Source of the DNA: Nitrososphaeria archaeon
GTDB lineage: Archaea; Thermoproteota; Nitrososphaeria; Nitrososphaerales; JACAEJ01
Direction of reading: 5' to 3'
Assembly (NCBI GenBank): GCA_029775875.1
Contig: JARVKD010000011.1
Coordinates: 1-33,972 of the forward strand
Length of the DNA stretch: 33,972 bases
Of the stretch, positions 3,838 to 33,760 are shown one piece after another. Below the pieces are notes generated by a model. That model saw nothing but the letters and a program-made list of their open reading frames with translations, had not been told where the DNA came from and did not search any database. Within the stretch, counting starts at the first letter, position 1. The number at the start of each line of letters is the position of its first letter. The position numbers were made by a program, and so were the translations under genes.

Positions 3838-3929
3838 GGGCCGGTCGTCTAGCATGGTTAGGACGTCAGTATAATTACCGTCAAGCTCTGACACGGCGAA
3901 GGTCGGTGGTTCAAATCCGCCCCGGCCCA
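3838..3929 (+). tRNA. tRNA-Val(GAC) with a predicted 17-nt intron at 3868..3884
   Basis: Acceptor GGGCCGG/CCGGCCC, discriminator A73, D-stem GTCT/GGAC, T-stem GGTGG/CCGCC with loop TTCAAAT. After removing 17 nt the anticodon arm is TCGCT-CTGACAC-GGCGA, giving anticodon GAC. Without removal no cloverleaf anticodon arm forms. Confidence 0.8.
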
Positions 3930-3974: not shown

Positions 3975-5168
3975 TTAAACAGGTTTCCAAGAACCTGCAT
4001 TATATTCATGCAAAATAGCCTCGTAGACTCCGATTGTCCATTCAGCTATCTTATCCCAGTTGTAGTTCCATAGGCATTTTTGATACGCATTGTTTACGAT
4101 CCAGTCTTTGAAGCCTACATCTCTTATTATCCTCAAAATACCCCAAGCCAGGGCTTCTGGATTGTTCGGAGGAACTTTTAGACCAGTGCCTTCATGATCC
4201 ACGATTTCGTCTAATCCTCCAATTGAGCTAGCAACTAATGGGCAATGGGCAGCCATGGCTTCTAATGCGACTATCCCAAAGGGTTCAAACCTTGAGGGAA
4301 CAATGGCTACGTCTGCCACACGGTACAACGCTCTTAGAGTCCAATCGTCTATATGTCCAGTGAAGAGTATCTTGTTGCCTAAACCATGATCTTTGGCCAG
4401 TCTTTGATACTCATCTCTCTGCGGACCCTCTCCAACCACAACTATCTTTGCGTTGACACCCTTACCCAAAATTATAGGAAGTGCTTTGATTAAAACATCC
4501 AAGCCCTTCTCTGGCACAAGCCTTCCAACGAATAAGAGGATTTTCTCTGATGCATGTGCAAACCTGTTCCTAATCTCCCAATAGTTAAAAACGAAGTTGA
4601 ACTTTGTTACATCTACTCCATTTGGTATTACACAAACTTTGTTTTCTGGGACTCGGAAACACCAAGAAACATGGTCTCGCATGTAGTATGAACATGTGAT
4701 TATTCGCCAAGACTCATAGCACAGCCAACTCTCGATTTCGTGGATGCAAGCTTGTAGATCGTTGTGAATTCCATTTCTCCTACCGTACTCTGTGCTGTGC
4801 ATAGTTGTGATTAGAGGTTTTCTGTATAGGTGCTTTAATCCAATTCCAGCAACTCCTGAGAGCCAATCATGAGCATGGATTACATCGACGCCTTTGATAA
4901 GGCTGATGAGATCGCAGCCCTTTCTTTCCATGTTCTTCTGCATGCGTAAGGCCCAACTGAGAAAAGAGTCTCCAGCTGCGTAGGCTTCGAACCTGTGCAC
5001 ATTTACGCCTTCCACAATTTCGTACTCTTTTGCGCCTGGAAAGTTACATGTCACTACGTGAATTTCAACTCCCCTACGGGTGAGAGCCCTAGACAGATCA
5101 AAAAGATGAGAAGCTAACCCTCCTATTATTCGAGGTGGGAACTCCCATGAGAGGTGGAGAACGCGCAT
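3975..5168 (-). CDS. GT4 family glycosyltransferase, glycogen-synthase-like (full length)
   Basis: N-term LHLSWEFPPRIIGGLASHLFDLSRAL; C-domain LLFVGRLVPEKGLDVL and EPFGIVALEAMAA (EX7E); C-term YNWDKIAEWTIGVYEAI...GSWKP. Confidence 0.9.
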   Translation of the reverse strand: MRVLHLSWEFPPRIIGGLASHLFDLSRALTRRGVEIHVVTCNFPGAKEYEIVEGVNVHRFEAYAAGDSFLSWALRMQKNMERKGCDLISLIKGVDVIHAHDWLSGVAGIGLKHLYRKPLITTMHSTEYGRRNGIHNDLQACIHEIESWLCYESWRIITCSYYMRDHVSWCFRVPENKVCVIPNGVDVTKFNFVFNYWEIRNRFAHASEKILLFVGRLVPEKGLDVLIKALPIILGKGVNAKIVVVGEGPQRDEYQRLAKDHGLGNKILFTGHIDDWTLRALYRVADVAIVPSRFEPFGIVALEAMAAHCPLVASSIGGLDEIVDHEGTGLKVPPNNPEALAWGILRIIRDVGFKDWIVNNAYQKCLWNYNWDKIAEWTIGVYEAILHEYNAGSWKPV

Positions 5169-5176
5169 TTAGATCA

Positions 5177-5818
5177 CTAAGCTTGTAAGGTTTCTTGAGC
5201 AACTCTCTGATAAACAGAAAACACTTCATCGACCCAGCCCTTGCCCACAGGCCACACTACGTCCATTTTTTTCCTATGACCATCACCATAATACCTCAAA
5301 ATCTCATTTTTCAGCCAATCTGTGTTAGTAATCACCTTGTTAGACTCCCATATTCCAGTGTCCTCGATCTCTTTTATGGCGATGCTGAGCGGACCGAAAC
5401 GGTTGTGAGACCGATGCCCCTCTATTGAGTGAAGGGTTAGGACAAAAGGAATATTAAAAGCATGTTTCAAACTGATCGCTGGAGAAATTGTAAGCCATTC
5501 ATGAGCATGTATGAGATCGATGCTTTTCTGATGCTGTTTGTAAAAGTAAACAATGTTTGAGGCTTCGTTTTCTATTTGCACGGATGCTGTCATAGCATAC
5601 GTTAGCACACTAGCCATTGGATGAGTTTTGACTGGGTTAGCGACTCTGTGGACATGGACGCCGTATACATCCTCAAATCCTGGCCGTAAATCATCTAAAA
5701 CCATAACCTCTACTTCGTTTTCGCGCTTCACGAGTTCATGGGCCAATGTGGAGACGTGGTCAGAGACGTTTCCTAAGCGTTTGGGCGGGTACTCCCATGT
5801 GAGGATTAGGACACGCAT
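5177..5818 (-). CDS. Standalone N-terminal half of a GT4 glycosyltransferase (no C-terminal donor-binding domain)
   Basis: 213 aa; MRVLILTWEYPPKRLGNVSDHVSTLAHELVKR and IDLIHAHEWLTISPAISLKHAFNIPFVLTLHS align with the N-domains of neighbouring GT4s; the ORF ends before any GRL..EKG or EPFG..ALEA motif. Confidence 0.85.
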   Translation of the reverse strand: MRVLILTWEYPPKRLGNVSDHVSTLAHELVKRENEVEVMVLDDLRPGFEDVYGVHVHRVANPVKTHPMASVLTYAMTASVQIENEASNIVYFYKQHQKSIDLIHAHEWLTISPAISLKHAFNIPFVLTLHSIEGHRSHNRFGPLSIAIKEIEDTGIWESNKVITNTDWLKNEILRYYGDGHRKKMDVVWPVGKGWVDEVFSVYQRVAQETLQA

Positions 5819-6107: not shown

Positions 6108-7322
6108 GTGAAGCCAAAGCTTTATTTTGCAATAGTTTTGCACATGCATCAACCAAGATACAACTTTACTGGACCCACATACGAGTCTGAAATTGCCCGA
6201 GACGTTTTCAATCAAACCCTTCACCCTTACACGTATCCACCTGAGATCATCGAAAAATATGAGAATGCGAAAATAACCTTCAACTTTACAGGAAGTCTTA
6301 TTGAACAGTTGAACGAGCTTATGAAAGCTGACTTTGATCCGAGACTGAAAGGATTATGGGACAGATATCTAAAATCAAAGAAGCTGGAGAGAGTCGAGTT
6401 CACAGGTTGTGGTTACTTTCATCCTATATTTCCCCTAATACCAGAAGATGATCGTCGAAAACAGATTGAGATGCACCTTAAAATCTCTGAAGAGACTTTT
6501 GGGGCGAGACCTAAGGGCTTCTGGCTTCCAGAACTCGCCTTCAGCACTAGAGTTGTTCCTGTTCTGGCAGAGATGGGTCTCAAGTGGACCATCGTAGACG
6601 GTCCTCATATAGTAAATGCCAATAAAGACATGGATAGATTCGATCTTCTTTATCATCCCCACTACGTTGAGTATGAAGGGCACCAAATAATCGTAATTCC
6701 AAGAGACAGAGGTATTAGTAATGCACAACAAAGTGGTTATAATCCTATCTGGCTTAAAAACGAAATCGAAAATTCAATTCAGCCTCACAATGACGGGGAC
6801 TTCTTGCTGACGGTTGCTACAGACGGAGAAAACGGTTGGTTTCGCCATTCTGGTGCGAACGCTGGCTTTTGGGGCTGGTTCTTTGAACCTCTTGCATACT
6901 TGCTGGGTAAAGACCCTGATTTTAATTTCATTGAGCTAATTACTATTGATGAGTATCTTAAAGAACATCCTCCTCATGATACAGTTGTTGTTGAGGATGG
7001 AAGCTGGAATGTACCAGGAACTTTTGACGATGGAAGATTTCTAAAGTGGACTGAGGGAGAACACAGAGAAAAAACATGGACTCAAATTTTGGAAACCAGT
7101 AAGCTCCTTCACGAAGTTGATGAAAGAGTTAAGGCTTTAGCTAATAATTGCCCATTGGAGGCTGTGGAGGCTCTCCAACAAGCTTGGAGGTGGCTTCTTA
7201 TGGCTGAGGCAAGTGATAACTTCTGGTGGGGAAGTGAAGATTGGTTAAACCGATCAACGATCTGTTCTATTAAGGCGAGGGAAAAGATGAAGGAAGTATC
7301 AAGGCTTTGCCATTTTACGTAG
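6108..7322 (+). CDS. Glycoside hydrolase family 57
   Basis: GH57 motifs: HMHQPRY (motif 1), GFWLPELAFS (nucleophile region), TVATDGENGWF (acid region). GTG start. Confidence 0.9.
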   Translation: MKPKLYFAIVLHMHQPRYNFTGPTYESEIARDVFNQTLHPYTYPPEIIEKYENAKITFNFTGSLIEQLNELMKADFDPRLKGLWDRYLKSKKLERVEFTGCGYFHPIFPLIPEDDRRKQIEMHLKISEETFGARPKGFWLPELAFSTRVVPVLAEMGLKWTIVDGPHIVNANKDMDRFDLLYHPHYVEYEGHQIIVIPRDRGISNAQQSGYNPIWLKNEIENSIQPHNDGDFLLTVATDGENGWFRHSGANAGFWGWFFEPLAYLLGKDPDFNFIELITIDEYLKEHPPHDTVVVEDGSWNVPGTFDDGRFLKWTEGEHREKTWTQILETSKLLHEVDERVKALANNCPLEAVEALQQAWRWLLMAEASDNFWWGSEDWLNRSTICSIKAREKMKEVSRLCHFT

Positions 7323-8523
7323 GTTTCCAAGAACCATGCTGATACTCATCACATATCGATTGGTATAAAGCCTTAACCTTCTCTGCTATCTTGCTCCAGT
7401 TATACATTTCTCTAACTTTCCTGTCAGCGTTTGACCTGATCCATTCGGCATAAGATGGGTCGAGTAAGACTCTAGTTATACCCCATGCCAATGACTCTAC
7501 ATTATTTGGATATACTTTTACTCCTGTCTTGTCATGCTCAACTATTTCTGCTAGTCCTCCTGTGTCTGATACTACTACTGGAACCTTTGCTGCCATAGCT
7601 TCTAATGCGACTATTCCAAAAGGCTCATAAAGAGAAGGAACCACACAGACATCAGCGCATTGGTAAAGAAATCTTACGCTCTGCTCGTCTAGAAAACCAG
7701 TGAAAAAGATCTTGTGAGCCAACCTCATATTGTTAACTTGGACCTTAAGGAAGTCTTTCATCCCTCCCTCACCAACGATCACAAGTTTTGCGTTTACTCT
7801 AGCCAAAACCTTGGGCATGGCATTGATCAGCACATGAACTCCTTTTTCATTGACAAGACGTCCCACAAAGAGGATGATCTTTTCATCGGGCTCTGCAAAC
7901 TTGCTTCTAAACTCTTGCTTTTTGAACTCTTGCTTAAACACGTCTGCGTTGACACCGTTCGGAATCATTACCACCTTGTCTTCCGGCAGTCCAAATGCCC
8001 ACCTTGTATGAGAAACCATGTATTGACTGCAACACACAACCTTCCAAGCCTCATGTGCAAGCCATGCCTCTGTCTCATGGATCATCCTCTCATAATTTGT
8101 GTGAAGGCCGTTTCTTCTCCCTATTTCAGTGGAATGTATAGTAGCCAATAAAGGAATCCTAAAGATGTGTTTTAGTCCTATTGCAGCATTGGCTACGAGC
8201 CAGTCGTGAGCATGAATAAGATCAACTTTTCCATTTAAATTACTGATAATAGTCGCAGCTTCCTTTTGCATATTCACATTCATCAGATAGTCCCATGTGG
8301 CGAAGTCTGGAGAAGGAGTCTTGTATGAATCCACTCGAATAACATGGACACCATTCACTTCTTCGTATTCTGGTGCTCCTGGGAAGTCACAAGTCACTAC
8401 GTAAGTATCTACTCCCATGCGGGCTAAGTGACTGGACAAATTGTAGACATGAGGAGAAATTCCTCCAACTGTTCTAGGTGGGAACTCCCAAGAAAGCATT
8501 ATGACTCGAAGTTGACGGTTCAA
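7315..8523 (-). CDS. GT4 family glycosyltransferase, glycogen-synthase-like (full length)
   Basis: LSWEFPPRTVGGISPHVYNLSSHL; ILFVGRLVNEKGVHVLINAMPKV; EPFGIVALEAMAAKVPVVVSDTGGLAEIVEH; C-term YNWSKIAEKVKALYQ...GSWKP. Confidence 0.92.
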   Translation of the reverse strand: MNRQLRVIMLSWEFPPRTVGGISPHVYNLSSHLARMGVDTYVVTCDFPGAPEYEEVNGVHVIRVDSYKTPSPDFATWDYLMNVNMQKEAATIISNLNGKVDLIHAHDWLVANAAIGLKHIFRIPLLATIHSTEIGRRNGLHTNYERMIHETEAWLAHEAWKVVCCSQYMVSHTRWAFGLPEDKVVMIPNGVNADVFKQEFKKQEFRSKFAEPDEKIILFVGRLVNEKGVHVLINAMPKVLARVNAKLVIVGEGGMKDFLKVQVNNMRLAHKIFFTGFLDEQSVRFLYQCADVCVVPSLYEPFGIVALEAMAAKVPVVVSDTGGLAEIVEHDKTGVKVYPNNVESLAWGITRVLLDPSYAEWIRSNADRKVREMYNWSKIAEKVKALYQSICDEYQHGSWKPT

Positions 8524-8546: not shown

Positions 8547-9179
8547 TTAAGATGCTAGATTTGGGGAGATGCCTAGCGCTTTTCTATAGGCTATAAGAAT
8601 CTCGTCGATCCAGGCTGGCGAATGGGGCGAGACAACCTCTATCTTTTCAAGGGGCGTTTTATAGATTCGTCTCACCTCTTGTTTCATCCATTCTGATTTG
8701 ACCAAAACTCTCTCAGCTTCATCGACGCCCAACAGTTCTAGACCTTTTATTGAGAGGTTCAAAGGAGCACTAGAGCCATGAGATCGATGATCTTCAAGAC
8801 TGTCTATAGAGAAGACAAACGGGATTCCTAACCCTCTCTTTAAGCTCACTGCAGCTGGAGTGAAATGCCAATCACATACATCGATAAGATCAACTTCACG
8901 TTTGGTCAAGTAAAAAATATCGGCAGCAACCCGTTCAACCTCCTGATTTAGGTTGAGGACCCATGTGAGAATGTTTATCTGGGATTTAACAGGATTTGAA
9001 ACTCTGTAAACTTTGACCCCGTCTACTCCTTGATGATAGCCTATCCAAGAGTCATGATATGTAACAACGTATGTGTCAACACTCTTTTTCACGAGGTCAA
9101 TTGCAAGTTTGTTCACATAATGAGAAAGCTGTCCAACAATTCTCGGTGGAAACTCCCATGTGAAGATTATGACGCGCAA
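8547..9179 (-). CDS. Standalone N-terminal half of a GT4 glycosyltransferase (paralog of 5177..5818)
   Basis: 210 aa; MRVIIFTWEFPPRIVGQLSHYVNKLAIDLVKK aligned to GT4 N-domains; shares DHRSH...APLN..IK..E with the other half-GT (GHRSH...GPLSIAIKEIE); no C-domain. Confidence 0.85.
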   Translation of the reverse strand: MRVIIFTWEFPPRIVGQLSHYVNKLAIDLVKKSVDTYVVTYHDSWIGYHQGVDGVKVYRVSNPVKSQINILTWVLNLNQEVERVAADIFYLTKREVDLIDVCDWHFTPAAVSLKRGLGIPFVFSIDSLEDHRSHGSSAPLNLSIKGLELLGVDEAERVLVKSEWMKQEVRRIYKTPLEKIEVVSPHSPAWIDEILIAYRKALGISPNLAS

Positions 9180-9192
9180 GGTAAAACCTCAA

Positions 9193-9447
9193 TCAAGTGA
9201 AAAGTGAGCAAACCCTAATTATTCCATTGCCTGTCAAATAGTGTCTTATGTTTCCGTCATTATCAGTGAGGCTTATGGTGTATCCTTCAGACTGATACTT
9301 ATTCATGATTTGATTGACTTCATTTACGTCGGTTTGAAGAATCTGCGCTAATTCGTCAGATTTCTTCGCTTTCTCTCGACTCGTAGCACCTAGATTGTGC
9401 AAGATTAGAAGGATTCTCTCAGAAAGTCGATAATCTTTCTCACTCAA
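9193..9447 (-). CDS. Winged-helix (wHTH) protein homologous to the C-terminal domain of the GT4 at 9553..11037
   Basis: 84 aa; ...KSDELAQILQTDVNEVNQIMNKYQSEGYTISLTDNDGNIRHYLTGNGIIRVCSLFT versus ...RSAEELSSILRIKVKEILRLLQKLISSGYIETSIDHLKRLRYHLTKSGIIKACSLFS. TTG start. Confidence 0.8.
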   Translation of the reverse strand: MSEKDYRLSERILLILHNLGATSREKAKKSDELAQILQTDVNEVNQIMNKYQSEGYTISLTDNDGNIRHYLTGNGIIRVCSLFT

Positions 9448-9471
9448 CTCTTTTCATCTCTAGCATCTTTA

Positions 9472-9533
9472 GTTACAAGGTGTAACAGCCAAATAACTTT
9501 TATGGAAGAAATATATATTCAAAAGTGTGAATA
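9472..9533. promoter_or_regulatory. Divergent promoter with two perfect inverted repeats (candidate operators)
   Basis: GTTACA-AGG-TGTAAC at 9472..9486 and TATTCA-AAAGTG-TGAATA at 9516..9533, the latter overlapping an AT-rich TATA-like tract (ATATATATT). Confidence 0.5.
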
Positions 9534-9552
9534 CATTCAAAAGCTGGTATGA

Positions 9553-11037
9553 ATGGTCAAAGATGACTTTAGCGTTCTGATGCTCTCTTGGGAGTTCCCA
9601 CCTAGAATCGTAGGCGGAATATCATCTCACGTTAACGATCTATCCTTAGCCTTAGCGAAGAAAGGTATAAGCGTACACGTAGTCACTTGTGACTTCCCAG
9701 GAGCACCAGAATACGAGGAAATTCAGGGGGTCTGCGTATACCGCTTTGATTCATACAAAATCCCTGCCTACAGCTTTCTCTCATGGGTCCTCTCAATGAA
9801 TCAAAAAATGATTCAGAGAGCCATGGAAGTAATAGATGCACATTATGGAAAAGTTGATCTTATTCATGCTCACGACTGGCTCGTTGCTGATGCAGCGATT
9901 AGGTTGAAGGACTTTTATGGAAAACCTTTGGTGTCTACCATGCATTCTACAGAGGCTGGTCGAAGAGGTGGAATCCGCAACGACTACCAAATGACCATAA
10001 ACGAAGTGGAGAGACGCCTTGTCAATGAAAGCTCAAAAGTAATCTGTTGTAGCAACTATATGGCAAATCAGATTTCTGAGACATTTAACTTTCCAAGAGA
10101 AAAAATCTCCGTGATTCGAAATGGAGTAAACGTTTCTAAATTTAACATCAAAATTGATGCCCAAGCTGTTAAGAGGCGATATGCCGAGCCTAATGAAAAG
10201 ATGGTTGTATATGTTGGAAGGCTGGTTCACGAGAAGGGAGTTCATGTACTGATTGGCGCAGTTCCGAAGGTGTTAGATGTATTGCCGAACGTGAAGTTTG
10301 TGATCGTTGGTGAGGGAGGGATGAAAGAGTATCTGTTAAAAGAGGCTTGGGACTTCGGTGTTTCTGATCACGTTTTCTTTACTGGTTTTGTGGACGAGAG
10401 CATGCTGGTATCGCTTTACAAAGCGAGTGACGTTGCGGTTTTTCCTTCTCTTTATGAGCCCTTCGGTATTACAGCATTAGAAGCCATGGCAGCAAAGGTT
10501 CCAGTAGTAGTATCAGATACAGGAGGTTTATCTGAAATCGTTGAGCATGACAAGACAGGAGTAAAAGTATATCCAGACAACTCTGATTCAGTGGCTTGGG
10601 GAATTCTAAAGGTGCTTAAAGATCAAGCCTTTGCAAACAAGATTCGAGAAAATGCCTATCAAAATGTTGTTGAAAACTATAATTGGGACAAAATCGCAGA
10701 GGAAACAATAAAGGTGTATCGTGAAGGTGTAACTTTGGCTCAACCGAGAATAGTTGCAAAGTATAGGGTAGAGTTTCCTTCTTTTAAATTTGATAGTTAT
10801 CCCGATGAGTTTAGAGTTCTCCTTTCCCTATACACCCTTGGAGCCATTGATAGCGAACATGCAAGGTCGGCTGAGGAACTGTCTAGTATACTGAGAATAA
10901 AGGTTAAGGAAATCCTAAGATTACTTCAAAAACTAATAAGCTCTGGATATATCGAGACTTCTATAGATCACTTGAAAAGACTGAGGTATCATCTTACCAA
11001 ATCTGGGATAATAAAAGCATGTTCACTTTTTTCTTGA
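9553..11037 (+). CDS. GT4 glycogen-synthase-like glycosyltransferase fused to a C-terminal winged-helix domain
   Basis: Complete GT4 (LSWEFPPRIVGGISSHV; VYVGRLVHEKGVHVL; EPFGITALEAMAAKVPVVVSDTGGLSEIVEH; YNWDKIAEETIKVY) followed by a ~100 aa extension homologous to 9193..9447. Confidence 0.9.
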   Translation: MVKDDFSVLMLSWEFPPRIVGGISSHVNDLSLALAKKGISVHVVTCDFPGAPEYEEIQGVCVYRFDSYKIPAYSFLSWVLSMNQKMIQRAMEVIDAHYGKVDLIHAHDWLVADAAIRLKDFYGKPLVSTMHSTEAGRRGGIRNDYQMTINEVERRLVNESSKVICCSNYMANQISETFNFPREKISVIRNGVNVSKFNIKIDAQAVKRRYAEPNEKMVVYVGRLVHEKGVHVLIGAVPKVLDVLPNVKFVIVGEGGMKEYLLKEAWDFGVSDHVFFTGFVDESMLVSLYKASDVAVFPSLYEPFGITALEAMAAKVPVVVSDTGGLSEIVEHDKTGVKVYPDNSDSVAWGILKVLKDQAFANKIRENAYQNVVENYNWDKIAEETIKVYREGVTLAQPRIVAKYRVEFPSFKFDSYPDEFRVLLSLYTLGAIDSEHARSAEELSSILRIKVKEILRLLQKLISSGYIETSIDHLKRLRYHLTKSGIIKACSLFS

Positions 11038-11040
11038 TAG

Positions 11041-12597
11041 TCAAAAACATTGCATTACTGTTTGAGCTAACTTTTTAATCTCTGTAAAACGATGATTGGA
11101 AACCTGAAACAGATCTTGTCTAAGTTTCTCTCCTCGAACTCCTGAAACTTGAACCTCCTTAAACTTCTGAGCTAACTTTTCATCTCTCAGTGAGAAAGCT
11201 GCCCACTTTTCAAAGTCTCCTCTTCGATTGTGAAACTCAATAGACTTTATGTCGACCCTTTGAAGAGCATCACTCATTCCTGCAAGACTCCAGACCTTGA
11301 CTCCAGTGAAGTCTTTCTCCTCTGAGCCCATGTAAAAGAGGAAAGGCTCATTCGCAGCAATAATATATGATCTTACCCTTGACTCGAAATCGAGGATGGC
11401 GCCTTGGGCAGTGACAAAAGCATCTATTGGAGAGTCGTAAGGGTTAAAATAGGTGTGAACTTCGCCTGGCGCCCCACCAGCCGTAAACATATAGTAAAGA
11501 TGATCGCTGGCTAGAAGATATCTCCAGATCTTTAGAAACTCTTCATCTTTGGATTCCTTGACTAGTGGCTCTAGTTCCTTTGTTATAGTGTAGTACGCCC
11601 ACTGCATTGTATTTCCAAGCCAGCAACTTGTGTCTCGTTCAATGTCAGCCCAAGAGACCGTGCCACCAAGTTCAGGGACATCAACTTCTCCAACAACCTT
11701 ATACTTGCTCAGAACCTCTGAGGGTGTTGCCATTTGGAGATTTTCCCACTTCAGAATTTCCTTTGGTAAGTATCTTAAGAAATCATGTATCCCAGTTTCT
11801 GGCCAATGATGTTCGCCAAAGGTCTCATAGTCTGGAAAGATGTTGATGCACTGACCTTGAGTTGCTGCCAACCAAGAGGCATATTTTTCAGCCGTCAGCG
11901 GCCACTCACTCCACTGTCTATCTGAGAATCTAAAACCGATGTCATCTGTGAGTTTATAGTTTCTTAAGAGAACCTTGATCTTCTCACAATTCTTTGCTTT
12001 GTACACGTAGTTAGGTGACCTGCCCTTAAGGACTCTTTCAACTCCTTCGGTGAAGATTCCAATGTAGCCCATTTTCTCCACGACCTTGGCTATAGCGTTA
12101 TTGTAAAGGAGTTCTGTATTCTCAAAAGTTAGTGGTTCAGCGTTAAGAAGGTCTTTCATTACTTGTCTGTGCATCCTGATCTGTTCGACGAATTCATCTC
12201 TGACTGGGTATAATCCAGTTAGAGAATGGTAGTAGGTCTGGTCTAGAAACTCAACACATCTTGTTTCGCTCAGTTGTTTAAACGACTCCAAAAGATCTGG
12301 ACTGTAAGCTTCACACTGTTCAAGAAAAATTCCAGATATACTGAAGGAAATCTTAACCTTTTTCTTTTCTCTTTTGAACTCATCGATAAGTTGAAGCAAG
12401 ATGTTGTTGGACGGGAAGTAGCATTTCTTGCAAGCCCTCTCAAATATCTCCCTATTCTTGGCTTTGTCAAAATAAAAATCAGACAATTCTCCTTTACGTA
12501 AGCGGCGGAACATGTTCCTCTCCCAGAAGAAACCTTTCTTGATTCTGATGGGCTGATGAACCTCGAATACAAAAACCACGTCAGTCAATCCTAGCAC
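11041..12597 (-). CDS. Glycoside hydrolase family 57 (alpha-amylase-like)
   Basis: VFVFEVHQPIRIKKGFFWERNMF; TFENTELLYNNAIAKVVEKMGY; NIFPDYETFGEHHWPETGI; archaeal GH57 alpha-amylase-type motifs. Confidence 0.9.
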   Translation of the reverse strand: MLGLTDVVFVFEVHQPIRIKKGFFWERNMFRRLRKGELSDFYFDKAKNREIFERACKKCYFPSNNILLQLIDEFKREKKKVKISFSISGIFLEQCEAYSPDLLESFKQLSETRCVEFLDQTYYHSLTGLYPVRDEFVEQIRMHRQVMKDLLNAEPLTFENTELLYNNAIAKVVEKMGYIGIFTEGVERVLKGRSPNYVYKAKNCEKIKVLLRNYKLTDDIGFRFSDRQWSEWPLTAEKYASWLAATQGQCINIFPDYETFGEHHWPETGIHDFLRYLPKEILKWENLQMATPSEVLSKYKVVGEVDVPELGGTVSWADIERDTSCWLGNTMQWAYYTITKELEPLVKESKDEEFLKIWRYLLASDHLYYMFTAGGAPGEVHTYFNPYDSPIDAFVTAQGAILDFESRVRSYIIAANEPFLFYMGSEEKDFTGVKVWSLAGMSDALQRVDIKSIEFHNRRGDFEKWAAFSLRDEKLAQKFKEVQVSGVRGEKLRQDLFQVSNHRFTEIKKLAQTVMQCF

Positions 12598-12745: not shown

Positions 12746-13822
12746 CTAAAGGTATCCAAGTTCCTTTGTGGTTATTACAAACATAGAATGGCTCCAACAA
12801 AGAGGGCTGACTGAAACTTGGAGGTCGTTCTCAAAGATTTGTTCTGGAATGAATTTTTGTACTCTGTCCAACACCCAGTTGTAGTATTGAAGAGCTTTCT
12901 CCTTGTGGCCTAATCTTGCATAGTATATGCTCAGCCAAAAGTTGAGGAGGGGCCAGGCTCCAGCGCCCTTCTTTCTATGCATGGTTTTGTAGATCCAACC
13001 ATCATACTCATCATGTTCATATCTATGAAGCCCTCCGTTCACTATAAGTTTCCTCTCCATCTCCTCTACACTTGCAACGATTCTTTTATCATTGGGTGGA
13101 AACACCTCAAAGGGATAGACTAGTCCTAGCATCGAAGCGTCTATTCTCCTGTCACTGAGCTTTCCATAACTCCTAAAGAAATAATTTTCATAATGTTTCT
13201 CAAGTCTTTCCCGCATCTGCTTGGCTACATTCATCCATTTTTCGTTAGGCATGAAAATGTTCGCGCATTCTAGTCCCTTTATGCATGCAGCGAGGGAATA
13301 AGTGAAGTTTTCTTCTAAGTCGGGAAAGGTGAACCTTTCTTCCCAGAGGTCATTGGTGACCTCATCGAAACAGTTTCCTTTCCATTTTTTGCAGATTCCA
13401 TCAGCCGCCATGCAAATGATTTTCTCATATTTTGATGCCTTTTTCAAACCATCTTTGAAGTGATGCCAAATAGCCCACAAAAAGGACCCTGTCTGATCTG
13501 GCTGAAAACTTCCAGATGCCTTTAAACCGTTAACAAAATAATTTTGATAAAAAACTCCATCATCTTGAAAATCCTCTGCCCTATTAATACACCAATCAAA
13601 AAACCTTTCTTGAATGTTTTTGATTCCAAGAATGTCTGCAGCCGCACAGGCAAAGGAGGCATCCCTAGGCCAAACGTAAGTATAGTATTTTGCGTCTTTT
13701 GCGAAATATTCTTTGGAGCAGTTAGCAGCCACAATAGCGCCATTTTCCAAGGCACAGTCCAAGATCACTCGTCTGCTGGTTTCTATCATTCTCCTAACTT
13801 TCATTTTCAAGTTATCACTCAC
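12746..13822 (-). CDS. GH15 family glucoamylase-like protein (catalytic domain only)
   Basis: YVWPRDASFACAAADILGI; NDLWEERF; GAWPLLNFWLSIYYARLG; PEQIFENDLQVSVSPLCWSHSMFV; 358 aa, no N-terminal beta domain. Confidence 0.88.
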   Translation of the reverse strand: MSDNLKMKVRRMIETSRRVILDCALENGAIVAANCSKEYFAKDAKYYTYVWPRDASFACAAADILGIKNIQERFFDWCINRAEDFQDDGVFYQNYFVNGLKASGSFQPDQTGSFLWAIWHHFKDGLKKASKYEKIICMAADGICKKWKGNCFDEVTNDLWEERFTFPDLEENFTYSLAACIKGLECANIFMPNEKWMNVAKQMRERLEKHYENYFFRSYGKLSDRRIDASMLGLVYPFEVFPPNDKRIVASVEEMERKLIVNGGLHRYEHDEYDGWIYKTMHRKKGAGAWPLLNFWLSIYYARLGHKEKALQYYNWVLDRVQKFIPEQIFENDLQVSVSPLCWSHSMFVITTKELGYL

Positions 13823-13921
13823 CTTCCTATTTCACTTTATCAAAATCTTCTTTCAAAAATAACTGATAAATCTATCGCAATTATTCCTTCCCTATCTTTT
13901 GATGAGACGGTAATTAATATC

Positions 13922-15556
13922 TTGTCAAAATTCTTTTTATGTTCTAAAAAATTTGGAGATAACTTTATAAATTTTTCAACGAGAAATTTTCTTGTGGAAG
14001 AAAGTACTGTTGTTTACGTTACACTTGAGACAGACTTAATAGATGGGGGAGGCATTGGTGGGCTAGGCATTTTAACTTCTGACGTTTTTCATGAGGCAAG
14101 GAGAAGGAACTCACCTTTTTACCTATTTTCACCTCTCTACCCAGTAAAATTACATCAAAAAATTAATAATGGCTCTGTAGAAATGGAAAGAATAAAAATC
14201 AACCATAATTCTTTGAAGAAAATTGATAGCTTCGGGTTGGATACCAAATGGTATCCTGTTGAAGTATCTGTTTATCTGCACGAGCTTAGCATAGAAAATA
14301 CTAGAAGTTATTTTATTGAGATGGCTCCAACTGAAGGAAATGGTTGGTTAAAAGAATTAGAACTTTATAATGAAAAGGATGAAGGACAGCAAGTATTTGT
14401 TAGATATACATTCGCAAGGTCTATAGCAAGATTCTTGAGGAGGAATAGTATATTGCCAAAATTGTATCACTTGAACGAAAGTGATACAGCCTTTCTAATT
14501 CTGGCAGTTGATGAAGAAGATATGAAGGGTAGATTCATCGGGAATACACATACACCTCAACTACACGGTCACAAAAGATTCAGAAAAGAAACTTGTGAAT
14601 GTCTGATAGAAGACAAATCTTTAGAGAAGCTAAAAGTAGGAGAAGAGGAGTATGGAGATATAAAATTCATAAACTTTGGGAGAATACTGGCATATTACAG
14701 CGAGAAATTATGTTGTGTCTCAGAACTACATGAAAAAGTGACAAAAGAATGCCTTTATCCTGAATTTAAAGAAAAGATAACTTCGGTAACAAATGGCATC
14801 AGCCTTGACTGGATTAGCCCTCATCTACAAAACTTGTTCAGCCAATATATTATAGGTTGGGAAAATAATAGTGATCTATTGAAGAATCTAGATGCAATTC
14901 CTAACAGTAAACTTCTGGAAGCCCACCATCTCAATAAAAGAGAACTCTCTGAGCAATTTCTTGAATGGAAAAGGAAGCAGGAAGTTATTTCTAATTTTGA
15001 TGAAATTAACATTGATAATACCATATTTACATGCGCCAAAAGGTTAACTGAGTACAAGAGGCTAGACCATTTTCTAAAACTCATCGATTTGTTTCCTGAA
15101 GCGACTTTTGTTTTTGCTGGTAGACCGATAAGGGAATGGGGAGATAAATTTCTCAAAAGTTTGATCGATACTATAAAAAATTCTGAAACATCAATAGCTT
15201 ATGTTTTAAATCATGATAGAGAAAAGGCGAGATATATGGTGGCTGGTTCAGATGTAGGAGTAAACATACCAGTATCGACCAGTGAGGCAAGCGGTACGAG
15301 TTGGATGAAGACGATTGTCAATGGGAATATTTTAGTCTCCACGCCATCTGGAAGTGTGCCTGAAGTAATAACCGATGGCAAGAATGGACTCATAGTACAT
15401 GACGACTTGTCTAATTTAAGGGAGAAATTAGAAGAGGCTGTAAGTTTTGCAAGAAATGGTGAATACGCTGAATGGATTAGAAACTCAATTTCTTCTTCTT
15501 GCTTTGTCTTAGCCCCTCGAATGTTCGATGATTATATATCAAAACTTTACAGTTAA
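13922..15556 (+). CDS. GT35-like alpha-glucan phosphorylase; start uncertain (in-frame TTG at 13922 is one option; ORF is open from 13544)
   Basis: GGGIGGLGILTSDVFHEA; HTPQLHGHKRF; ITSVTNGISLDWISP; CAKRLTEYKRLDHF; SEASGTSWMKTIVNG (phosphorylase PLP-lysine region). The ORF N-terminus overlaps GH15 antisense and is unlikely to be real. Confidence 0.8.
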   Translation: MSKFFLCSKKFGDNFINFSTRNFLVEESTVVYVTLETDLIDGGGIGGLGILTSDVFHEARRRNSPFYLFSPLYPVKLHQKINNGSVEMERIKINHNSLKKIDSFGLDTKWYPVEVSVYLHELSIENTRSYFIEMAPTEGNGWLKELELYNEKDEGQQVFVRYTFARSIARFLRRNSILPKLYHLNESDTAFLILAVDEEDMKGRFIGNTHTPQLHGHKRFRKETCECLIEDKSLEKLKVGEEEYGDIKFINFGRILAYYSEKLCCVSELHEKVTKECLYPEFKEKITSVTNGISLDWISPHLQNLFSQYIIGWENNSDLLKNLDAIPNSKLLEAHHLNKRELSEQFLEWKRKQEVISNFDEINIDNTIFTCAKRLTEYKRLDHFLKLIDLFPEATFVFAGRPIREWGDKFLKSLIDTIKNSETSIAYVLNHDREKARYMVAGSDVGVNIPVSTSEASGTSWMKTIVNGNILVSTPSGSVPEVITDGKNGLIVHDDLSNLREKLEEAVSFARNGEYAEWIRNSISSSCFVLAPRMFDDYISKLYS

Positions 15557-30853: not shown

Positions 30854-33760
30854 TTGACGACTCAAATGTCAAGTCGCTTTGTTTCAGAACGCGACTTTGT
30901 AGCTAATTACATATTGCCTAAGTTGAAAGAGGCAAGTAGGATTATTGGAAAAGCGGATGTCGTTGAATTTCACGTTGAGAAATCTATCGACGGCATAGCC
31001 GATTTGACTGCTGAGAAAGGCGGTAAAGGTCTTTTTGTGTTAGAGGCAAAGTTCAAGAAGAAGATCGGTAAAGTCGAGCATGATATAGAGCCTCGTGACC
31101 CAGATGTAATAAACCAAGCCGTGAATTATGCAGTTTTTGGTGGCTTTCCTTATTATCTAACTTGCAACGCTAAAAGAATAGTTCTATTTCAATTAAGACC
31201 AGGAATTAAAGCCTATGAGAGTGAAATAGCATCGTATGAATATGATGTTCATCCAAATTGGGCTGAAGAGATTCTAAAAGCAACTCTCGAATTAATTCCT
31301 ATTCGCCTTAAGCCTTTAGATGATACTCTTGTTGATACCCTTCATGAGGCATTTAATGATCTTTACCCAGAATTTCTATCATCGCTAAAGGATAGACTGA
31401 AGGATAAAAGATTTCATGATAAGTATGTCGATTGGCTTGAAAGTCAAGGTATTGAGTTTAATGATGAGAATAATAGGCTGATAGCGGAGCAGTCCACATA
31501 TTTACAGATTAACAAACTTCTATTCTATCAAGTCATTAGAGTAATTTACCCCAATAGGTTAAGCCCGCTTAAGATTAAAGAGGATGAAGATGTTTCTGAT
31601 GCTTTGAATAGATTTTATGCTGAGGCTAGAGCAATAGATTATGCTCCAATTTATGAGAGCGATATTATAAGTGAAATTCCTTTCACAATAAGGGCTAAGG
31701 AGCGAATAAGAACGCTCCTTGATACATTAAATGAATTTGACTTTTCAAAGATGGAGAGTGACTTCCTTGGTAGAGTTTATGAGAAACTCATCACACCTAT
31801 TGAAAGGAAGAGGCTCGGACAATTCTATACTCCTCCAGGTATAGTCGATTTTATAATTCAACTCACATTAAGGCAACCTAATGCAATAGTTTTAGACCCA
31901 GGTTGTGGTTCAGGTTCATTTCTTGTTAAAGCGTATCATAAATTGCGTGAACTTAATGGCATACCTAAGTATGCTTCTGGAGCCCTTGGAGAAACATTCC
32001 ATAAGCAGTTATTGGAGCAAATATATGGTGTTGATATTAATCAGTTTCCAGCCCATCTATCAGTGATTAGCCTTGCAATTCAGAATCCTAAGGCTAAGAT
32101 TGATAAAGTGAACGTTATTGTAAATGATTTCTTTAACGTTAAGCCTGGTCAAGCCACTCTATCGGGCTTTGAGAGTATAACGACTGAAGGCAAGAGAACT
32201 TTGATTGAATTGCCACCATATTTTGATGTGGTCGTTGCTAATCCACCTTACATAAGGCAAGAACTCTTAGGTGATAAAGAGAAGCGTAAGATTAAGGAAT
32301 TAATTGAAGGAGAATACAAAGGCAAGGTGTTTATAGGAGCCCCAATAAAGAAGGTTTCAGATGCTATAATTCTCGACAAGCAGAGCGATATTTACATTTA
32401 CTTCTTTATTCATGGAATAAGGCTCCTAAGGAACAATGGCTACTTAGGTTTTATATCTTCAAACAAGTGGCTTGAGGTAGGCTATGGAGAACCTTTCCAA
32501 AAATTTCTACTTGATTATACGAAAATACACTATGTCATTGAGTTTGATAGAGCCGTATTCCCTGATGCTGAGGTAGATACTGCTGTGACAATTTTGGAAA
32601 AAGAGGGTAATAAAGCAAAGCGGAACAATAACCTAGTAAAATTTGTAAGGCTTAAGCAAAAGATGGATTTGAATACGCAATTAAGACTTATTAGTGAAGT
32701 TAAAGAGAGTTTTGAGGACGAAAGAATCAGAATCAATTTAGTTAATCAAGGCGATCTTAAGCCTAGTAAATGGAATGTATATCTAAGGGCTCCACCCGTC
32801 TACTTTAAGTTGATTAATAATCCACTTCTCAAGCCAGCCAATGAATTACCAATCGAAATATACCGAGGTCCTACACCAGGTTGTAATGAATATTTTATCT
32901 TAGACAAAGAATATGCTAAAGAATGGGAGATAGAATCTGATTATTTATGCCCTGTTATCACTTCACCTAAAGATATTTACGGTCTAATAGTTAAGAAGAA
33001 TACGATTAACACTTACTTCTTCTGGTGCCATAAACATAAAAATCAATTAAAAGGCACTAATGCCCTAAAATATATCGAGTATGGAGAGAAACTGAAGGTT
33101 CAGGTGGGAAGGAAGTCTGAAAGAAGTGATAGAAATGTCAGACTTTTGCCACAATTAGAGACTATTAAGAACCGTGACCCATGGTATGGTTTACCAGAAC
33201 AAGAACCAGGTCATTTATTAGTTCCAAGAATGGTGAGGAAAAAATTCAGAGTATATTACAATGCTGATCATGTGCAAGCCAAAGACACATTTAACTGTAT
33301 AAAATTAAGAGAAGGTAACCCAAAGGCTTTAGCAGGGTATCTCAATTCCTCAACGGGACGATTTTTGGTCGAATTGGCTTCGAGGGCATATACGGGAATG
33401 CTCGAACTGCAAACCTATGAACTTAAACAATTACCACTGTTGGATGTCACCAAGATTAAACCGGATGATATTGAAAAGATATCTAGGAAGTTTGATGAAC
33501 TCTCAAACGCTGTGCAGAATTTAGTTCTAGCAGAAGAAGAACTAGAAAAATCAAAATCCAAGACAAAGAAAGAGCGAGGATTATTCGAAGATGAAATCCG
33601 CCAAAAACTCGATTCAGCGATCGAGAACGAAAGAAAAGCGCAAAAAGAACTTGATGAAACTATCTATGACATCCTTAATCTAAAACCAAGTGAGAGAAAG
33701 CAAATCGAACATGGATTATTAGAATTACAAGAAATACGAAGGCTCAGAACTCAAGTATAG
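30854..33760 (+). CDS. Type IIG-like (Eco57I-type) restriction-modification protein: N-terminal nuclease-like domain, N6-adenine methylase, C-terminal specificity region
   Basis: PD-(D/E)xK-like IDGIADLTAEKGGKGLFVLEAKFKKK; GQFYTPPGIVDFI; VLDPGCGSGSFLVKAYHKL; VVANPPYIRQEL (NPPY). TTG start. Confidence 0.88.
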   Translation: MTTQMSSRFVSERDFVANYILPKLKEASRIIGKADVVEFHVEKSIDGIADLTAEKGGKGLFVLEAKFKKKIGKVEHDIEPRDPDVINQAVNYAVFGGFPYYLTCNAKRIVLFQLRPGIKAYESEIASYEYDVHPNWAEEILKATLELIPIRLKPLDDTLVDTLHEAFNDLYPEFLSSLKDRLKDKRFHDKYVDWLESQGIEFNDENNRLIAEQSTYLQINKLLFYQVIRVIYPNRLSPLKIKEDEDVSDALNRFYAEARAIDYAPIYESDIISEIPFTIRAKERIRTLLDTLNEFDFSKMESDFLGRVYEKLITPIERKRLGQFYTPPGIVDFIIQLTLRQPNAIVLDPGCGSGSFLVKAYHKLRELNGIPKYASGALGETFHKQLLEQIYGVDINQFPAHLSVISLAIQNPKAKIDKVNVIVNDFFNVKPGQATLSGFESITTEGKRTLIELPPYFDVVVANPPYIRQELLGDKEKRKIKELIEGEYKGKVFIGAPIKKVSDAIILDKQSDIYIYFFIHGIRLLRNNGYLGFISSNKWLEVGYGEPFQKFLLDYTKIHYVIEFDRAVFPDAEVDTAVTILEKEGNKAKRNNNLVKFVRLKQKMDLNTQLRLISEVKESFEDERIRINLVNQGDLKPSKWNVYLRAPPVYFKLINNPLLKPANELPIEIYRGPTPGCNEYFILDKEYAKEWEIESDYLCPVITSPKDIYGLIVKKNTINTYFFWCHKHKNQLKGTNALKYIEYGEKLKVQVGRKSERSDRNVRLLPQLETIKNRDPWYGLPEQEPGHLLVPRMVRKKFRVYYNADHVQAKDTFNCIKLREGNPKALAGYLNSSTGRFLVELASRAYTGMLELQTYELKQLPLLDVTKIKPDDIEKISRKFDELSNAVQNLVLAEEELEKSKSKTKKERGLFEDEIRQKLDSAIENERKAQKELDETIYDILNLKPSERKQIEHGLLELQEIRRLRTQV

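Follow-up and report, generated by a model that had tools for sequence, protein, structure and literature searches.

A winged-helix protein encoded with GT4 glycosyltransferases in Thermoproteota is a probable enzyme subunit rather than a DNA-binding regulator

The data suggest that a small standalone winged-helix protein (sWH), found beside GT4 glycosyltransferases in many Thermoproteota, is probably an accessory, and probably regulatory, protein subunit of an alpha-glucan-elongating GT4 and not a DNA-binding regulator. In the window (the whole 33,972 nt stretch of DNA analysed here, from an archaeal genome of 1.23 Mb in 54 contigs), sWH is an 84 aa MarR-like protein (9193..9447, minus strand, with a TTG start) and the first gene of a sWH - half-GT - GT4 triad. 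On the plus strand, GT4_C-WHC (9553..11037, 494 aa) encodes a GT4 with its catalytic residues retained and a C-terminal winged-helix domain, WHC (residues ~418-494, 10804..11034, plus strand), which ends in CSLFS-COOH. The two proteins align without gaps over residues 11-84 of sWH and 421-494 of GT4_C, with 30/74 identities (41%, BLASTP E 8e-18), and GII.(V/A)CSLF[ST] is present at both C-termini. When the family profile was run across the genome, only the sWH and GT4_C loci scored strongly (6.6e-30 and 1.8e-25; the next match was at 0.003). Judged from the sequences, this homology is not due to chance. The preliminary description of this DNA, which had reported the homology, the shared terminal GIIxxCSLF[ST] and a Rosetta-stone fusion, is therefore borne out on these points; of the C-terminal extension of ~95 aa that it had assigned to the domain, the length is nearly right (~100 aa follow the GT4 core), but the winged helix takes up only ~75 aa of it. 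The rest includes a linker (~residues 392-417) that AlphaFold2 predicts to be partly disordered (pLDDT < 50 at 398-411), followed by WHC in the order H-H-H-E-E-H with pLDDT blocks mostly at 91-98.

Structure prediction and Foldseek also agree with the winged-helix fold that had been expected from sequence; a model of another fold was not obtained. AlphaFold2, run on an 80-row alignment, gives sWH a classical winged-helix topology at pLDDT 90.3 (DSSP: H8-18, H30-37, H41-54, E57-61, E67-71, H73-82), containing the H1-S1-H2-H3-wing core. The solved winged helices matched in the PDB are TubR, MepR, AspA and MarR, at Foldseek E values between 2e-4 and 1e-3 and Z of about 12, with TubR 4asn at E 2e-4 and TMq 0.79 and MepR and AspA at Z about 12. 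At their cut-offs, the models of Pfam and NCBIfam leave the sWH family without a name: PF01047 scores GT4_C at 12.7 bits against a cut-off of 24.6, does not match the sWH of the window, and matches weakly 6 of 25 family members (best E 3.7e-5). The likeness to MarR, TubR and AspA is one of core fold. Unlike these proteins, sWH lacks the N- and C-terminal dimerisation helices of MarR (it aligns to MepR residues 30-106 only) and ends with a helix of ~10 residues; its recognition helix is acidic and variable, its C-terminus is free and fixed, and it is paired with a glycosyltransferase. Since sWH fails on three features that define MarR regulators, we do not class it among them despite its MarR core fold.

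Evidence for a functional link to GT4 comes from gene neighbourhood. Among 398 genomes of Thermoproteota, the phylum of the window, the sWH profile finds matches at E <= 3e-10 in 127, nearly all of them short standalone frames of 75-110 aa. A GT4 or half-GT on the same strand adjoins sWH in 129 of 134 distinct loci: the neighbour is a half-GT downstream (83 loci), a GT4 upstream (42) or a GT4 downstream (4). Two arrangements are thus seen, the triad sWH-half-GT-GT4 and the dyad GT4-sWH, with gaps of mostly a few bases and several 4 nt overlaps. In a maximum-likelihood tree, the GT4s form two deep clades corresponding to dyads and triads (support 98/100), indicating that the association of sWH with GT4 outlived both a deep split and a change in gene order. 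The link would then either predate the dyad/triad split or have arisen twice. The five exceptions are three loci without an adjacent same-strand GT4 and two loci of family f38 (possibly Thermocladiaceae), where the sWH homologues stand alone (L174:4928-5215 and L179:5214-5447); the one in L179 is flanked by a YaaH-type gene on one side and an amino-acid permease gene on the other, with RNA polymerase genes in the vicinity and no GT4 nearby. Two other apparent fusions were rejected: a GH57-sWH frame in L133 crosses undetermined bases, and a 294 aa frame containing sWH (L137/L199) is an open frame extended upstream rather than a domain fusion.

The partner that most often follows sWH is a degenerate glycosyltransferase. 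The half-GT of the window triad, half_B (8547..9179, minus strand, 210 aa), consists of the N-terminal, acceptor-side domain of a GT-B enzyme without the nucleotide-binding domain, with G22 changed to Q and H131 to D, and precedes a full GT4, GT4_B (7315..8523, minus strand), which ends in GSWKPT. A second half-GT, half_A (5177..5818, minus strand), has no adjacent sWH, lacks the second Gly of the GG loop although His131 is retained, and is followed by a full GT4, GT4_A (3975..5168, minus strand). GT4_A, GT4_B and GT4_C all carry the two GT-B domains (PF13439 and PF00534) above cut-off, and the GT4s retain the GG loop, the His, the R/K pair and EX7E: in GT4_C numbering, G22, H131, R223, K228, E302 and E310 are invariant (45-46 rows with a letter at the position). 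G22, in contrast, is kept in 0/84 half-GTs (45/45 GT4s) and H131 in 12/84 (46/46 GT4s), while E134 and R137, which are structural residues, persist in 83/84 half-GTs. In GT-B enzymes, G22 and H131 fall in the nucleotide-sugar-binding loop and close to the transferred sugar, so the half-GT is most likely not catalytic and looks like a pseudoenzyme. The three GT4s of the window carry complementary partner sets, since half_A and GT4_A have no sWH and GT4_C has a winged helix and no half-GT. In four genomes of family f43, a degenerate half-GT is fused to the N-terminus of the GT4 (567-588 aa; L186:5608-7311, L221:623-2356, L222:562-2280, L223:698-2464) with sWH immediately upstream, here ending in Cys and not Ser/Thr. 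The same three parts are therefore tied together by two independent fusions, sWH-GT4 in one genus and half-GT-GT4 in f43.

The likely product of these enzymes, an alpha-glucan, is suggested by their neighbours. The window also encodes a GH57 of the alpha-glucan-active type (6108..7322, plus strand), a GH57 with a C-terminal DUF5752 (11041..12597, minus strand), which is syntenic with sWH-half-GT-GT4 in Bathyarchaeia (e.g. L128), a GH15 of the oligosaccharide amylase/glucoamylase type (12746..13822, minus strand) and an alpha-glucan phosphorylase-like protein (13850..15556, plus strand; its start is uncertain, the frame being open from 13544). With three GT4s, two half-GTs, two GH57s, a GH15 and a phosphorylase-like protein, the region is an alpha-glucan cluster. 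Likewise, 52 of the 69 sWH loci of at least 8 kb contain another alpha-glucan enzyme (GH57, GH15, debranching enzyme or phosphorylase), GH57 relatives being present in 49 of them, and some sWH loci carry NDP-sugar pyrophosphorylase/phosphoglucomutase genes. The best subfamily model for the window GT4s is TIGR02149 (glgA_Coryne), which scores below cut-off (186.2 vs 302.4 bits), so that the substrate can only be deduced; TIGR02095 also falls short (104.9 vs 328.45 bits). The nearest solved chains to GT4_C (6tvp, 6kih) are those of Tll1590 and alpha-maltose-1-phosphate synthase. The window GT4s share the GG loop, His, R/K and EX7E with these glycogen/maltose-1-phosphate synthase-like enzymes and differ from them in carrying or pairing with a winged helix and a half-GT. 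At L084:8839-11334 and in its relatives (family f9), a nucleotidyltransferase-phosphoglucomutase/phosphomannomutase fusion (831 aa) lies directly upstream of a GT4-sWH dyad and is a candidate for NDP-glucose supply in one protein.

How much weight should the GT4_C-WHC gene itself bear? By homology it is a true fusion, although in the Thermoproteota genomes searched it is found only in the genus of the window. In the sister species (G001), the closest relative carrying the cluster, a 1-nt deletion around codon 113, outside any homopolymer, interrupts the GT4_C frame, and the terminal CSLFS is replaced as a result of a 2-nt deletion close to the end; these deletions may be errors of the metagenome-assembled genome. 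Between the two species, standalone sWH and GT4_B are tightly constrained (pN/pS 0.04 and 0.06), the GT part of the fusion less so (0.15), and WHC (0.5) or linker plus WHC (0.9) little, the last two values being from very few changes. The fusion could accordingly be a lineage-specific, nearly neutral accident heading for a pseudogene, with only the standalone cassette of importance, as the single genus, the sister deletions and the weak constraint on WHC would have it. We think this rather unlikely, given that the window frame is intact over 494 aa with all GT4 catalytic residues and the terminal motif and that its GT part is still constrained, and in any case it would leave the cassette untouched. 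Confined to one genus and frameshifted in the sister species, the fusion is weaker evidence than gene neighbourhood; with the weak constraint on WHC, the Rosetta-stone argument leans more on the cassette than on the GT4_C gene. GT4_C belongs to the triad clade, and we therefore rejected simple read-through of a GT4-sWH dyad as the origin of the fusion; the source of WHC cannot be read from the winged-helix tree, which is too short. The sister species also has its alpha-glucan phosphorylase-like gene split into three frames (L064:6064-7919), a possible sign of partial decay of the glucan cluster or of assembly error.

Nearly all fold neighbours of sWH are DNA-binding proteins, and the preliminary description had left open whether the domain binds DNA, perhaps in a trigger enzyme, or is a protein-protein module. 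An acidic and variable recognition helix and missing dimer helices tell against the first and, with a conserved free C-terminus, favour the second. The recognition helix of sWH (residues 41-54) has a mean net charge of -1.45 (n=80 sequences) against +1.33 for MarR-family controls from the same phylum aligned to the same profile (n=21; p 8e-8, Mann-Whitney). Variability is among the highest at its exposed helix-3 positions (entropy about 3), the wing is shortened in 24/80 sequences and the family median pI is 5.7; sWH thus lacks the basic, conserved recognition helix and wing of a DNA contact. Taken from sequence, the charge argument against DNA binding is circumstantial. Conservation is strongest at L13, L16, H17, N18, A27, G55, Y56, Y70, L71, G75, S81, F83 and T84 and defines a patch that the end of helix 1 (HNLGA) forms together with the free C-terminus, G-I-I-[KR]-V-x-S-x-[FY]-[ST]-COOH. 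The proteins end at one and the same column in 116/116 distinct cases, with T, S or C as the last residue, and the penultimate residue is F or Y in 111/116. For 41 loci, which came from a collection scan with a pattern (alignment A2) covering the C-terminal motif, there is a bias toward having the motif, not toward ending there. Both the acidic helix 3 and the free C-terminus at its fixed position suggest that the domain binds protein, and the fusion leaves the C-terminus of WHC free (CSLFS), as that idea predicts. We therefore favour a protein partner over DNA.

An ordinary local transcription regulator of the MarR/TrmB type, acting on the glucan operon and brought to the enzyme as a DNA-binding domain by the fusion, is an unlikely identity for sWH. 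The MarR/TubR/AspA fold, the position of sWH as first operon gene in triads and, in the window, beside a divergent promoter would suit such a role, as would the fact that TrmB-type sugar regulators are winged-helix proteins and that sWH has weak TrmB/MarR matches. Besides the recognition helix and the MepR alignment limited to residues 30-106, what speaks against it is that an adjacent sWH is always on the strand of the GT4, often as the second gene after it, and that in GT4_C the winged helix is fused to an enzyme. The divergent intergenic region (9448..9552, 105 bp) contains an AT-rich TATA-like stretch; a search of it for operators turned up no convincing candidate, the one hit being a weak inverted repeat of 9 nt (9513-9536). 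Less probable still is that sWH tethers the glycosyltransferase to the ribosome, the nucleoid, RNA or a glucan granule without regulating it: winged-helix domains do act as adaptors in other systems and sWH has weak PCI and eS10 similarities, but those matches are at chance level and there is no direct evidence for a tether. Most improbable is a trigger enzyme in which GT4_C-WHC senses glucan or an NDP-sugar and acts on the 9448-9552 promoter, for which the covalent fusion, the shortness of the spacer, the 159/161 identical positions in the sister species over the stretch surrounding it and the inverted repeat could be cited, since WHC comes from a family with an acidic recognition helix, the GT4 would have to dimerise before the fusion could form a dimeric DNA-binding unit, and the sister copy is frameshifted.

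With sWH as a probable subunit of the GT4, a physical complex of sWH, GT4 and half-GT may be envisaged. The C-terminal tail and the helix-1 patch of sWH would dock either on the GT4 itself or on its pair with the half-GT, which would give an extra acceptor-binding surface, and sWH would stabilise or gate the complex; in GT4_C, an sWH-type subunit would be covalently attached with its C-terminus still free. AlphaFold2 modelling of the fusion, with paired rows supplied by in-frame GT4-sWH dyads in which the stop was read as a residue (alignment A5), did not yield a confident docking interface of WHC on GT4_C: it gave two good domains at pTM 0.77 and a disordered linker, as expected from two undocked domains. 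It is tempting to speculate, and we do so tentatively, that Thermoproteota possess a three-part alpha-glucan synthase composed of a GT4, a degenerate half-GT serving as second acceptor site and a non-DNA-binding MarR-fold subunit that gates the enzyme through its free [FY][ST] tail.

Two known systems resemble this arrangement in part. In bacterial GtfA-GtfB, which acts on adhesins, a catalytic glycosyltransferase works with an acceptor-binding, GT-like partner that acts as a chaperone (PMC6973325). The cassette would similarly combine a catalytic enzyme with an acceptor-side partner, but this partner amounts to no more than the N-terminal half of a glycosyltransferase, and a winged helix is added. 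In the TPSP-GT trehalose synthase of Thermoproteus tenax, a member of the same phylum, a sugar enzyme becomes activated when it forms a complex with its operon partner (PMC3634074); the principle of the operon partner is shared, whereas the enzymes differ and TPSP-GT has no winged helix. The cassette belongs to neither system: an enzyme with a degenerate partner is of a known kind, and the added winged-helix subunit is what is new. In the open literature, where archaeal glycogen regulation is described as unexplored, we found no description of a glycosyltransferase with such a winged-helix partner. If the three-part synthase is real, it would represent a phylum-wide mode of controlling glycogen-type synthesis and a clear example of how the fold of a transcription factor became an enzyme subunit, here in a family without a name in Pfam or NCBIfam. 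The cassette is a concrete and testable candidate, its three proteins being small, co-encoded and suited to joint expression.

Two further features of the window may be recorded. A 92 nt tRNA gene (3838-3929, plus strand; Rfam RF00005), to which ARAGORN assigns no anticodon, looks intron-containing, with a possible GTC anticodon (tRNA-Asp). At the end of the window lies a gene for an Eco57I/MmeI-type restriction-modification methylase of 968 aa (30854-33760, plus strand).
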